Shown: piece by piece, positions 14,015 through 17,613 of the stretch
How the letters are laid out: every line of letters begins with the position of its first letter
How positions within the stretch are numbered: position 1 is the stretch's first letter
NCBI GenBank assembly: GCA_024682455.1
Contig: JAIKZF010000023.1
Span: 1-45,131, forward strand
Direction: 5' to 3'
DNA: 45,131 nt
Source: Ruminiclostridium sp.
GTDB lineage: Bacteria > Bacillota > Clostridia > Oscillospirales > Ruminococcaceae
Made by a program: the position numbers and the translations under genes
The notes under the pieces: generated by a model
Seen by the model: only the letters and a program-made list of their open reading frames with translations
Told to the model about the DNA's origin: nothing
Databases searched by the model: none

Positions 14015-15862
14015 ATGACATACAAGGACAAGCTTGACAGGATACTGTTAAAGGTGCAGAAGCCCTCCCGCTATATAGGCGGGGAGCTGAATTCTGTCGA
14101 AAAGGATCCGGAGAAGGTCACTATGCGCTTCGCTTTCTGCTTCCCGGACACCTACGATATCGGAATGTCCCATCTCGGTATGAAGATACTCTACTCGCTG
14201 ATAAACGATGTCCCCGGATACTGGTGTGAGCGCGTCTATATGCCCCTGCCCGATATGGAGGAGCAGATGCGCAGACACGATATACTTCTCTACGGCCTGG
14301 AGAGCCTGCAGCCCATAAAGGACGCGGATTTCATAGGCTTTACGCTCCAGTATGAGCTGTCGTTCTCGAATATCCTCGCCATGCTCGACCTCGCGGGACT
14401 GCCTGTTTACGCGAAGGACAGACCGGCTCTCACGCCGATAGTCTGCGCCGGAGGTCCCTGCGTCTGTAACGCCGAGCCGATAGCCGATTTTGTCGATCTG
14501 TGCATACTCGGCGAGGGCGAGGAAGTGAACCTTGAGCTTATGCGCCTGCTCGAACGCTGCAAGGCCGAGGGGACGACAAAGCATGAGTTCCTTGTCCGTG
14601 CCGCGCGGATAGAGGGCATATACGTCCCGTCGCTCTATGAGGTAGAATACAACGATGACTGCACGATAAAGAGCATAACCCCGACCGAGGGGGCTCCCGA
14701 AAAGGTAAGAAAGCGCATCATAAAGGATTTTGACAGCGTGTTCTATCCCGACACGTTCGTAGTACCGTTTTCGGAGATAGTCCATGACCGCGCTGTTGTG
14801 GAAGTCCTGCGCGGCTGCATACGCGGCTGCCGATTCTGTCAGGCGGGGTATCTATACCGTCCGTTCCGGGAAAAGACCGTGGAGACCATAGAAAAGGAGA
14901 CGATCTCGCTCTGTGAGAGCACCGGATATGACGAGGTATCGCTGACCTCGCTGAGCACGAGCGACCACAGCGAGATAGAGCGTATGCTCGGGACTCTCGC
15001 GACTTACTCGGACGCGGCGCGCGTCAATCTGTCGCTGCCGTCGCTGCGGATAGACCGTTTCAGCAAGGAGCTCGTCGACCGCATAAAGAGCGTCCGCAAG
15101 AGCGGCCTCACCTTCGCCCCGGAGGCCGGCACACAGCGGCTCCGCGACGTGATAAACAAGAACATCACCGAGGAGAACGTGATGAACAGCTGCCGTATAG
15201 CCTTCGAGGGCGGCTACTCGTCGGTCAAGCTTTACTTCATGCTCGGTCTGCCTGACGAGACCATGGAGGACATAGACGGCATAGCCGACCTCTGCCAAAA
15301 GATAATCGACCTGTTCTACTCGATAGAAAACCGTCCGAAGGGCGGGATAAAGATATCCGTATCGCTCTCCACGTTCATACCTAAGCCCTTCACGCCGTTC
15401 CAGTTCGAGCCTCAGCCGACCGAGGACGTGATAAGGGAGCGTCAGAAGCACTTAATGGAGGTCGTCAACAAGAAGCGCGTCACGGTAAGTCGCTCGCACT
15501 TCGACGTCACGCATCTCGAAGCTGCTCTTGCGCGCGGAGACAGGCGGCTTTCCGCTGTGATATACTCGGCGTGGAAAAAGGGCTGCAAGCTCGACGGCTG
15601 GACCGAATACTACAAGTACGACAAGTGGATGGAGGCGTTTAAGGAATGCGGCATAGACCCCGCGTTCTATGTGAACCGTACCCGCAGCTATGACGAGATA
15701 ATGCCCTGGGAGCAGATGGACGTGCTGGTGAGCAAGGAATTCCTTATCCGCGAGAACAAAAAAGCGCATGAAGCAGTGCCTACGCCCAACTGCCGCGAGA
15801 GCTGCGCGGGCTGCGGCGTGAACAGGTGCGTCGGCAGACCGTGCTTTGAATATGATAAATGA
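14015..15862 (+). CDS. TIGR03960-type B12-binding-like radical SAM protein
   Basis: Predicted [4Fe-4S] radical SAM enzyme of unknown reaction (615 aa). Seen: an N-terminal region (about 30-230) resembling a B12-binding fold, then the cluster motif CIRGCRFCQAGYLYRP near residue 268 (Cys-x3-Cys-x2-Cys), downstream SAM-barrel motifs such as FAPEAGTQRLRDVINKN, and a Cys-rich C-terminus (CRESCAGCGVNRCVGRPC) that could carry a second cluster. The family is widespread in Firmicutes and usually neighbours a DUF2344 gene, as here, with one small membrane gene between. GGAGG lies 5 nt before the ATG. The partner arrangement suggests a joint role, perhaps in RNA or cofactor modification, but no substrate is established as far as I know. 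Confidence 0.88.
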   Translation: MTYKDKLDRILLKVQKPSRYIGGELNSVEKDPEKVTMRFAFCFPDTYDIGMSHLGMKILYSLINDVPGYWCERVYMPLPDMEEQMRRHDILLYGLESLQPIKDADFIGFTLQYELSFSNILAMLDLAGLPVYAKDRPALTPIVCAGGPCVCNAEPIADFVDLCILGEGEEVNLELMRLLERCKAEGTTKHEFLVRAARIEGIYVPSLYEVEYNDDCTIKSITPTEGAPEKVRKRIIKDFDSVFYPDTFVVPFSEIVHDRAVVEVLRGCIRGCRFCQAGYLYRPFREKTVETIEKETISLCESTGYDEVSLTSLSTSDHSEIERMLGTLATYSDAARVNLSLPSLRIDRFSKELVDRIKSVRKSGLTFAPEAGTQRLRDVINKNITEENVMNSCRIAFEGGYSSVKLYFMLGLPDETMEDIDGIADLCQKIIDLFYSIENRPKGGIKISVSLSTFIPKPFTPFQFEPQPTEDVIRERQKHLMEVVNKKRVTVSRSHFDVTHLEAALARGDRRLSAVIYSAWKKGCKLDGWTEYYKYDKWMEAFKECGIDPAFYVNRTRSYDEIMPWEQMDVLVSKEFLIRENKKAHEAVPTPNCRESCAGCGVNRCVGRPCFEYDK

Positions 15863-15882
15863 TCTGTCAATGAGGCTGAAAA

Positions 15883-16239
15883 ATGGGTGAATTGTGGCAA
15901 TGGCTCACGGAGACCAGTGAGGGCGGGTATATGCTGCTCGCGGTAATGATATGCGCGACAGGTGCTTTCTTCTATATAATGAACTGGCTGATATTCATAA
16001 ATAACTTGATACCGGGAAGAAAGTGGTCATCTATGGTGCCGCCGCTCGGGGGACTTCTCATAGCGGTCGCTATGCTTGTTGCGGGGCTCGGCTGGTGGGC
16101 GTTGATCGGGCTTACCGATCCGTTCACATTCGTGCTGATATATTCGCTGGCGGACGGAGGCAGAGGAAAATCGCGGGAAACCGACAAGAAAGAGACAGAA
16201 AAGGAAGAAACGGAAGAAAATGGCGAACACGGCAACTAA
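15883..16239 (+). CDS. small membrane protein between the radical SAM partners
   Basis: 118 aa, family not recognised. Three hydrophobic segments (about residues 14-38, 49-72 and 78-92) are followed by a strongly charged Lys/Glu tail of about 25 residues. GAGG lies about 8 nt before the ATG. It overlaps the DUF2344 gene by 20 nt, so it is part of the operon. Confidence 0.75.
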   Translation: MGELWQWLTETSEGGYMLLAVMICATGAFFYIMNWLIFINNLIPGRKWSSMVPPLGGLLIAVAMLVAGLGWWALIGLTDPFTFVLIYSLADGGRGKSRETDKKETEKEETEENGEHGN

Positions 16240-16861
16240 AAATATGAGGATATTCTTCTCGAAAACGGGAAGAGCGATATATATATCACATCTCGATCTG
16301 TACAGGCTGTTCCAGCGCTCGATAAAGCGCGGCAAGCTGCCGGTGTGGGAGACCGAGGGCTTCAACCCGCACGTCTATATCACGTTCGCGCTGCCGCTGG
16401 CGCTCGGAACGGCGGGAGTACGCGAGAGCCTTGACCTGAAGCTTATCGAGGACATAAGCAGGGAAGAGCTGATCTCCCGCTTCAACGACGCGCTCCCGCG
16501 GGATATCAGGGTGACGGACGCCGCGGAGCCCGTGATGAAGCCCACCGAGATAGCGCTGTCCGAGTATGAGGCGCGCTTCGAGTGTGATAACGCGGCTTTC
16601 GCGGAGTTCCTGTCCTCGGAGCACATCATGACCGAGAAAAAGACAAAGCGCGGCATCGCCGAGCTCGACCTTAAGGAGCATCTTGACATTCTCGAACGTT
16701 CCGACGGATATCTTCGGTTCACGTTCCCGTCGGGTACGGAGTTCAACATCAACGCGGGGCTGCTGTTCGACGCTTTCGAGAAGCAGTTCGGCACCGAGAT
16801 TTATACACTTCGCATAACAAGGACGGCAATAAAATGCCGCAATGGAGAAATTTTCCATTAA
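16220..16861 (+). CDS. DUF2344 radical SAM-linked protein (TIGR03936-like)
   Basis: 213 aa. The N-terminus MRIFFSKTGRAIYISHLDL with GFNPHVYITFALPLALG is the hallmark of the DUF2344/TIGR03936 family, which occurs next to, or fused with, TIGR03960 radical SAM proteins. The start at 16220 overlaps the previous gene; an in-frame ATG at 16244 gives the more typical N-terminus and is equally possible. It ends 311 bp before rplS. Its reaction is not known to me; the family is assumed to assist the radical SAM protein. Confidence 0.88.
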   Translation: MANTATKNMRIFFSKTGRAIYISHLDLYRLFQRSIKRGKLPVWETEGFNPHVYITFALPLALGTAGVRESLDLKLIEDISREELISRFNDALPRDIRVTDAAEPVMKPTEIALSEYEARFECDNAAFAEFLSSEHIMTEKKTKRGIAELDLKEHLDILERSDGYLRFTFPSGTEFNINAGLLFDAFEKQFGTEIYTLRITRTAIKCRNGEIFH

Positions 16862-16886: not shown

Positions 16887-16915
16887 TTGCTTTTTTAAAA
16901 AGAAAGTGTTATAAT
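16887..16915 (+). promoter_or_regulatory. rplS promoter
   Basis: TTGCTT (16887-16892), a 17-nt spacer and TATAAT (16910-16915) with TGT before the -10 (extended -10). Transcription should begin near 16921-16922. Confidence 0.8.
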
Positions 16916-16920
16916 ATAAA

Positions 16921-17153
16921 GGCATTTGTAACCGCCGCAAAATACGGCGAGGGTTAATGCAGAGGGCGGGATCGTGCGCACGGCGGCAGAACGCTGCTTT
17001 CGCGGCAGATACATCGCCCGCATTAAACGGGTATTCCGCTGCGTATGGAGAGTCAGGACGGCTTTCCGGCGGTGAGGACGCGCGGCATAAGACCGCCAGG
17101 GGGCATGTGCAGTCCCGGAGGTCCCCGCTCCGTAAAGGATACGCAAGAATGCC
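16921..17153 (+). ncRNA. long structured 5' leader of rplS (candidate cis-regulatory RNA)
   Basis: Fills the 311-bp gap before rplS. Pairings read by eye: outer helix GGCATT (16921-16926) with AATGCC (17148-17153); hairpin CGCCG/CGGCG (16933-16937 with 16945-16949); domain 1 closed by TTAATGC/GCATTAA (16954-16960 with 17020-17026) and GGGCG/CGCCC (16964-16968 with 17015-17019); domain 2 closed by GCGTAT/ATACGC (17041-17046 with 17139-17144), with GGCGGT/ACCGCC (17068-17073 with 17092-17097) and CGGAG/CTCCG (17116-17120 with 17128-17132) inside. The outer helix begins at the predicted transcript start and ends a few nt before the RBS AGGAGG. It is much longer than the short L19 leader motif I know of. 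No ORF with an RBS is seen in it. Confidence 0.6.
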
Positions 17154-17172
17154 GTAACAGGAGGAAAAAGAA

Positions 17173-17514
17173 ATGGATGCACTGAAGATCATTGCTCAGG
17201 ACAGCATGAAGGCCGAGGCTCCGGAGATCCACGTAGGTGATACCGTCAAGGTACACGTACGCATCACGGAAGGCGACAAGTCGCGTATTCAGGTCTTCGA
17301 GGGAACGGTAATCGCCAGAAAGCACGGCGGTATCAACGAGACATTCACTGTAAGAAGAGTGGCTCACGGCGTAGGCATCGAGAGAGTATTCCCGATCCAC
17401 AGCCCCTCTGTTGACAAGGTAGAGGTCATAAGGACCGGTGTTGTTCGCAGAGCGAAGCTTTACTATCTGCGTGACAGAGTAGGTAAGGCTGCAAAGGTAA
17501 AGGCAAAGTATTGA
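17173..17514 (+). CDS. rplS: 50S ribosomal protein L19
   Basis: Structural protein at the 30S-50S interface (113 aa, normal length). Seen: [29 protein letters not shown] and [21 protein letters not shown], both diagnostic of bL19, with [20 protein letters not shown] near the C-terminus. A strong AGGAGG stands before the ATG. It is preceded by the long structured leader and followed by lepB-rbgA-rnhB; Bacillus shows rplS-rbgA-rnhB in the same order. RbgA downstream is a 50S assembly factor, so ribosome supply and assembly are linked. Confidence 0.98.
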
Positions 17515-17547
17515 TTTCTCCCCTTTACCGGAAATGACAGACGAAAA

Positions 17548-17573
17548 GGTAATAACGGGAGACCGTTATTGCC
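17548..17573 (+). terminator. hairpin between rplS and lepB, possible attenuator
   Basis: GGTAATAACGG (17548-17558) pairs with CCGTTATTGCC (17563-17573), including one G-U pair, around a GAGA tetraloop (GNRA type). No T run follows directly, so it is a weak terminator or an mRNA-stabilising or processing hairpin that lets rplS outproduce the downstream genes. Confidence 0.5.
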
Positions 17574-17613
17574 TTGATTCGCTGTATTTATTGAGTTTTT
17601 GTGAGTGGTGGAT

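Follow-up and report, generated by a model that had tools for sequence, protein, structure and literature searches.

A probable L19 leader hairpin and an additional 5' domain make up a conserved leader RNA of a clostridial rplS transcription unit

The closest described system is the L19_leader family RF00556, a predicted ribosomal protein leader of Firmicutes that has also been reported in Flavobacteria (PMC7247131). As far as we found, binding of L19 and repression of rplS are predicted functions of this family. The main text of that study (PMC7247131) describes neither a Clostridia-specific L19 leader nor a 5' extension domain, and our search of the open-access literature found no paper on a 5' extension of the L19 leader or on experimental proof of L19-leader function. 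Here, we analyzed the region upstream of rplS in a 45,131-nt stretch of DNA from Ruminiclostridium sp. (GenBank assembly GCA_024682455.1, contig JAIKZF010000023.1), hereafter the window. The rplS transcription unit carries a two-domain conserved RNA at its start (Table 1). A sequence-only reading had proposed a 233-nt fully enclosed structure far longer than the short L19 motif. The excess length is real, and it consists of an arm insert within the known motif and a separate domain placed 5' of it.

Table 1. Features of the rplS locus in the window (coordinates of the 45,131-nt stretch)
Feature	Position	Strand	Basis
rplS promoter: -35 TTGCTT 16887-16892, 17-nt spacer, -10 TATAAT 16910-16915	16887..16915	+	read directly
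Element A, GGCAUUUGU (family consensus AGCAUUUGA), predicted transcript 5' end	16921..16929	+	near-invariant in 98 leaders
Alternative pairing A:B, GCAUU 16922-16926 with AAUGC 16956-16960	16922..16960	+	excludes P3
P2 hairpin CGCCG(CAAAAUA)CGGCG	16933..16949	+	covariation
P3/P4 arm	16954..17026	+	pairing, compensatory changes, R3
L19 leader hairpin (probable) with expanded structured arm	17028..17155	+	RF00556 layout, covariation, R2
Shine-Dalgarno AGGAGG	17159..17164	+	read directly; same layout in relatives
rplS, ribosomal protein L19 (113 aa)	17173..17514	+	ORF and homologues

The rplS transcript is predicted to be short and to start from its own promoter at about 16921. The -10 element ends 5 nt before this position, which agrees with the earlier placement of the first leader strand at the predicted transcript start, and element A begins at the same distance past the -10 in 88 of the 98 non-redundant relatives. 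The motif GCAUUUG stands at this predicted start. The promoter was not among the results of a generic consensus scan because its -35 element is weak. Upstream, the genes at 14015-16861 presumably encode a radical SAM protein and a DUF2344-type partner, and the 3' end of a putative DUF2344-type gene sits before the leader in many relatives. Downstream, between rplS and lepB, a long inverted repeat in two parts (ACAGACGAAAAGGTAATAACGG gaga CCGTTATTGCCTTGATTCGCTGT, 17538-17586) is kept in the genus with changes on both arms, and many relatives have a T-run after it. This repeat is the probable terminator of rplS, although its T-run is poor in the window.

For comparison, rplS was found in 63 of 71 genomes of the genus and 275 of 299 genomes of the family, many of the compared genomes being metagenome-assembled, and 156 rplS upstream regions were taken from them. 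Pairing was counted in 98 non-redundant leaders having all five blocks (A-E), a sample biased to conserved examples because the blocks were sought with consensus patterns. At the DNA level, a search of the 299 family genomes returned, besides the window's own genome, only fragments of 22-34 nt, none of which could be placed at an rplS leader. Most relatives share, after the -10, the series A-P2-B-P4-C-D-arm-E-SD, that is, AGCAUUUGA, a hairpin, UUAAUGCC, a second hairpin, GACAUUAAA, CGGAUAGUCCKCUG, a variable arm, GAAUAUCCGAAAA and AGGAGG. A covariance model of the full leader (R1) detects the window at an E-value of 2e-7, and 26 of its 27 class-wide matches lie directly upstream of rplS; the remaining match (L198) falls inside another gene and looks like a chance match.

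Folding energy alone does not set this leader apart from chance in GC-rich sequence. The 251-nt leader has a minimum free energy of -98.1 kcal/mol against a mean of -91.3 kcal/mol for dinucleotide shuffles (z = -1.42), and 19 of 200 shuffles were as stable. The case for a conserved RNA thus rests on comparative evidence rather than on energy, and this evidence redraws the proposed architecture. The sequence-only reading was accurate in much of its detail: GGCATT (16921-16926) and AATGCC (17148-17153) are complementary, the helix at 17041/17144 is present, and so are the two multi-helix domains and the small hairpin. A single 233-nt RNA closed by 16921-16926/17148-17153, forming one large leader or riboswitch fold, would find some backing in the occurrence of this outer helix in the window's minimum-energy fold and in the five-pair core GCAUU/AAUGY that 53 of the 98 relatives could form. 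However, the covariation anticipated for the 16921/17153 helix did not appear in the 98 leaders, where its pairing counts equal the independent expectation and 27 relatives carry a C.A mismatch in A:E, whereas the covariation anticipated for the 17041/17144 arm holds. The outer helix also shares its 3' strand with the covarying L19-leader helix. In the window the two alternatives are close (-98.1 kcal/mol with the outer helix and -97.8 kcal/mol with the L19-leader helix, with pair probabilities of about 0.57 and 0.41), but forced folding of the 98 relatives gave the lower energy to D:E, the L19 helix, in 77 and to A:E, the outer helix, in 15, and RNAalifold on the four closest leaders chose the former and rejected the latter. 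The units of the leader are consecutive domains at 16921-17029 and 17028-17155 rather than one enclosed structure. The single-enclosed architecture is largely refuted already and we regard it as very unlikely; the 16921/17153 helix is at most an alternative pairing in this lineage.

The 3' domain has a well-defined layout, comprising P5a (17030-17036/17147-17153), an internal loop of CGC (17037-17039) opposite A (17146), and P5b (17040-17045/17140-17145), and in the window its arm carries an insert of about 94 nt. Its D:E helix covaries among the 98 leaders, with D4-E5 as CG in 49, TA in 26 and TG in 21, D5-E4 as AT in 81 and GC in 10, and D15-E-4 paired in 69 against 37.8 expected. In alignment A1, 85% of cells are paired, compared with 34-44% in slid controls, and 65 double-change cells occur against 24.7 in shuffles. 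RNAalifold on the four closest leaders indicates that the enlarged arms are themselves structured and partly covarying. Additionally, in several relatives (L151, L157, L039, L095, L097-L099 and L103) most of the outer helix of the L19 hairpin is changed on both sides, giving helices such as GGUUC/GAACC and GACAAUC/GAUUGUC; a broader survey of covariation could profitably draw on these variants.

Elsewhere in the class, both in other orders and in further families of the window's order, a hairpin of about 40 nt makes up the entire leader, usually lying 6-17 nt past the -10 and about 20 nt ahead of the start codon. In 28 such minimal leaders the outer stem is 100% and the other stem 90.7% paired, and double-change cells number 58, compared with 17.5 in shuffles. 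A covariance model built from minimal leaders of other families only (R2) gave 40 matches over 46 loci belonging to the window's family and the sister family, with E-values below 1e-3 in most cases. On the window itself, the best local R2 match (17031-17152) is weak at 5.4 bits, a score we attribute to the arm insert. Most relatives have the leader and its L19 hairpin, and about a dozen divergent ones lack one or the other, so the hairpin is dispensable in places. Several rplS leaders lack a recognisable L19 hairpin (L055, L091, L096, L101, L106, L109 and L184); such leaders are apparent losses, some of them in the window's own genus.

Measured against Rfam's cut-off, the window falls outside RF00556, since it does not reach the gathering score: it gave no Rfam 15 match at gathering level, and relaxing the search to E<=10 brought up no RF00556 match either. 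The RF00556 gathering threshold of 36 bits was reached by none of 149 family genomes, and 20 relatives' loci gave no gathering-level match to any Rfam 15 family. Weak, sub-threshold RF00556 matches do occur in the family, and among those listed three lie directly upstream of rplS (G073 at 24.6 bits, G129 and G086); the minimal leaders L195 and L227 have such matches at the right place. The G073 alignment equates the RF00556 consensus GAUGuUC-CGC-UG...CA-A-GAgCAUC with the D/E hairpin, whose equivalents in the window are 17030-17036/CGC/17040-17041...17144-17145/A/17147-17153. The window thus has the RF00556 consensus structure, a layout that covaries both in the 28 minimal leaders and in the window's family, and this structure lies immediately ahead of rplS, within its 5' UTR. 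Because no family match reaches the gathering score, the link to RF00556 is one of structure and position. Judged by its structure, its position and its line of descent through the minimal leaders, the 3' domain is a probable homologue of the L19 leader and would act like it. A clostridial L19 leader, including its minimal form, is hereby identified that the Rfam model misses at threshold.

The 5' domain (16921-17029) is a separate, undescribed conserved RNA domain that is not in Rfam 15. Within element A, GCAU is invariant in alignments A1 and A3. P2 covaries even within the four closest leaders (CG to UA, GC to AU), and its counts in A3 are lower bounds because that alignment misaligns some P2 registers. 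P3 joins UUAAUGC to GCAUUAA (16954-16960 with 17020-17026), and P4 joins GGGCG to CGCCC (16964-16968 with 17015-17019). P3, the B:C pairing, is 98.8-99.2% paired, with compensatory changes of UA to CG in three A3 sequences and AU to GC in two A1 sequences, and P4 covaries. A covariance model of the 5' domain only (R3), whose seed did not include the window sequence, recovers the window (16920-17029, 37.5 bits, E 5e-6) and has a single match per genome in 49 of 120 family genomes, representing 48 of 119 genera; all 38 copies checked for position lie just upstream of rplS.

This distribution bears on the suggestion, also made from the sequence, that an independent RNA is processed from the leader. 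A free small RNA with its own function might be imagined from a leader so long, structured and GC-rich. However, every checked leader copy is at rplS and none stands alone, the 3' domain extends to the Shine-Dalgarno sequence, and the terminator scan found no plus-strand intrinsic terminator in the leader or between it and rplS. The suggestion is left without support, and we find it scarcely credible.

Another reading makes the 5' domain the coding sequence of a leader peptide that would start at the conserved [A/G]UG in UUAAUGCC, with translation of this short ORF coupled to rplS. An AUG or GUG is present in 95 of the 98 leaders, preceded by a purine-rich stretch of the GAGAG/GGGAG type, but the A/G at the putative start codon is already demanded by pairing with U in P3, frames across the arm are distributed at random (37:32:29), and the median ORF of 13 codons equals that of control frames. 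This reading is highly improbable. The UUAAUG/UUAGUG sequence in P3 (16954-16960) does resemble a start codon, and the window has a leader ORF of 66 codons (16957-17157), whose frame and length are not kept in relatives.

The A:B pairing competes with P3 for the same strand. It is pairable in 99.1% of A3 cells and shows no covariation there, because A hardly varies. In 87 of 92 relatives A:B lies within 0.5 kcal/mol of the early-transcript minimum, and its median difference from B:C across the 92 is 1.4 kcal/mol. In these folding models, the near balance of A:B and P3 would fit, and suggests, a two-state 5' domain. A possible link from this domain to the L19 hairpin through a C:E helix (GACAUU/AAUGUC) was tried and rejected: the strands are complementary in the consensus, but pairing counts are near the independent expectation, the five-pair core is complete in 44 of the 98 leaders, and the helix is energetically worse in most.

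The near-balanced pairings in the 92 relatives, together with the strongly conserved unpaired or alternatively paired segments (GCAUUU, GCC/GAC) and the covarying helices, could also point to a second, independent sensor in tandem with the L19 hairpin, responding to temperature, to a small molecule or to a different protein, so that rplS would have two inputs. Riboswitch classes usually control several genes, whereas the 5' domain has one match per genome, only upstream of rplS where checked. Furthermore, no expression platform joins it to the Shine-Dalgarno sequence, the candidate C:E pairing being unsupported. We consider such a sensor unlikely. Somewhat speculatively, the 5' domain might be an undescribed bistable module in which GCAUU and CAUUAA compete for AAUG and the exchange, triggered by L19, by the timing of transcription or by some other signal, sets whether the L19 hairpin works. 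The leader would then be a tandem, two-input ribosomal protein leader that evolved by domain addition to a minimal 40-nt ancestor; we put this forward as a tentative idea that is probably not correct.

By sequence, the window's family (f1) and a sister family (f5; L188, L190, L192 and L193) have the 5' domain, and it is absent in the examined loci of families f2, f3 and f4 and of other orders (L217, L206, L240 and others). Only some gut and rumen clostridia added it ahead of the L19 hairpin, and the simplest history is its gain in front of a minimal ancestor. The occurrence of minimal and extended forms in related families offers a natural comparison for the role of the extra RNA. The extended form is found in the cultured species Ruminococcus flavefaciens, Caproiciproducens galactitolivorans and Massilioclostridium coli, which makes it testable.

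Conservation, covariation, location and phylogenetic distribution of the leader are direct observations, and their best explanation, which we consider probable, is that L19 represses translation of its own rplS through the 3' hairpin while the 5' domain modulates this control. L19 in excess of its rRNA sites would bind the 3' hairpin, and the bound hairpin would hinder initiation at the Shine-Dalgarno sequence, which begins 5 nt beyond the 3' strand of the hairpin; 17 nt separate the hairpin end from the rplS start. In this way rplS would be repressed by its own product. The 5' domain would probably modulate the switch through co-transcriptional folding, extra L19 contacts or 5'-end protection. 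The identity of L19 as the ligand, control at the level of translation and the part played by the 5' domain are our inferences. Autoregulation by L19 is proposed by analogy with the RF00556 family and ribosomal protein leader biology (PMC7247131), and translational control is preferred over attenuation because the leader contains no plus-strand intrinsic terminator. The earlier suggestion of an autoregulatory leader sensing L19 is well supported: the 3' domain is a probable homologue of the L19 leader and, where checked, lies at rplS.

In summary, the leader resembles RF00556 in its position directly upstream of rplS, in an outer helix ending UC/GA, in an internal loop of three nucleotides (CKC) against one, and in an inner helix starting UG/CA. 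It differs in size and score: RF00556 has 42 positions, whereas the window adds the arm insert and a 5' domain of about 108 nt and scores below thresholds. With other predicted ribosomal protein leaders of Clostridia, such as those of S4 and S10 (PMC7247131), it shares a structured 5' UTR, covarying helices and a putative autogenous control, while the protein and the RNA structure are different.
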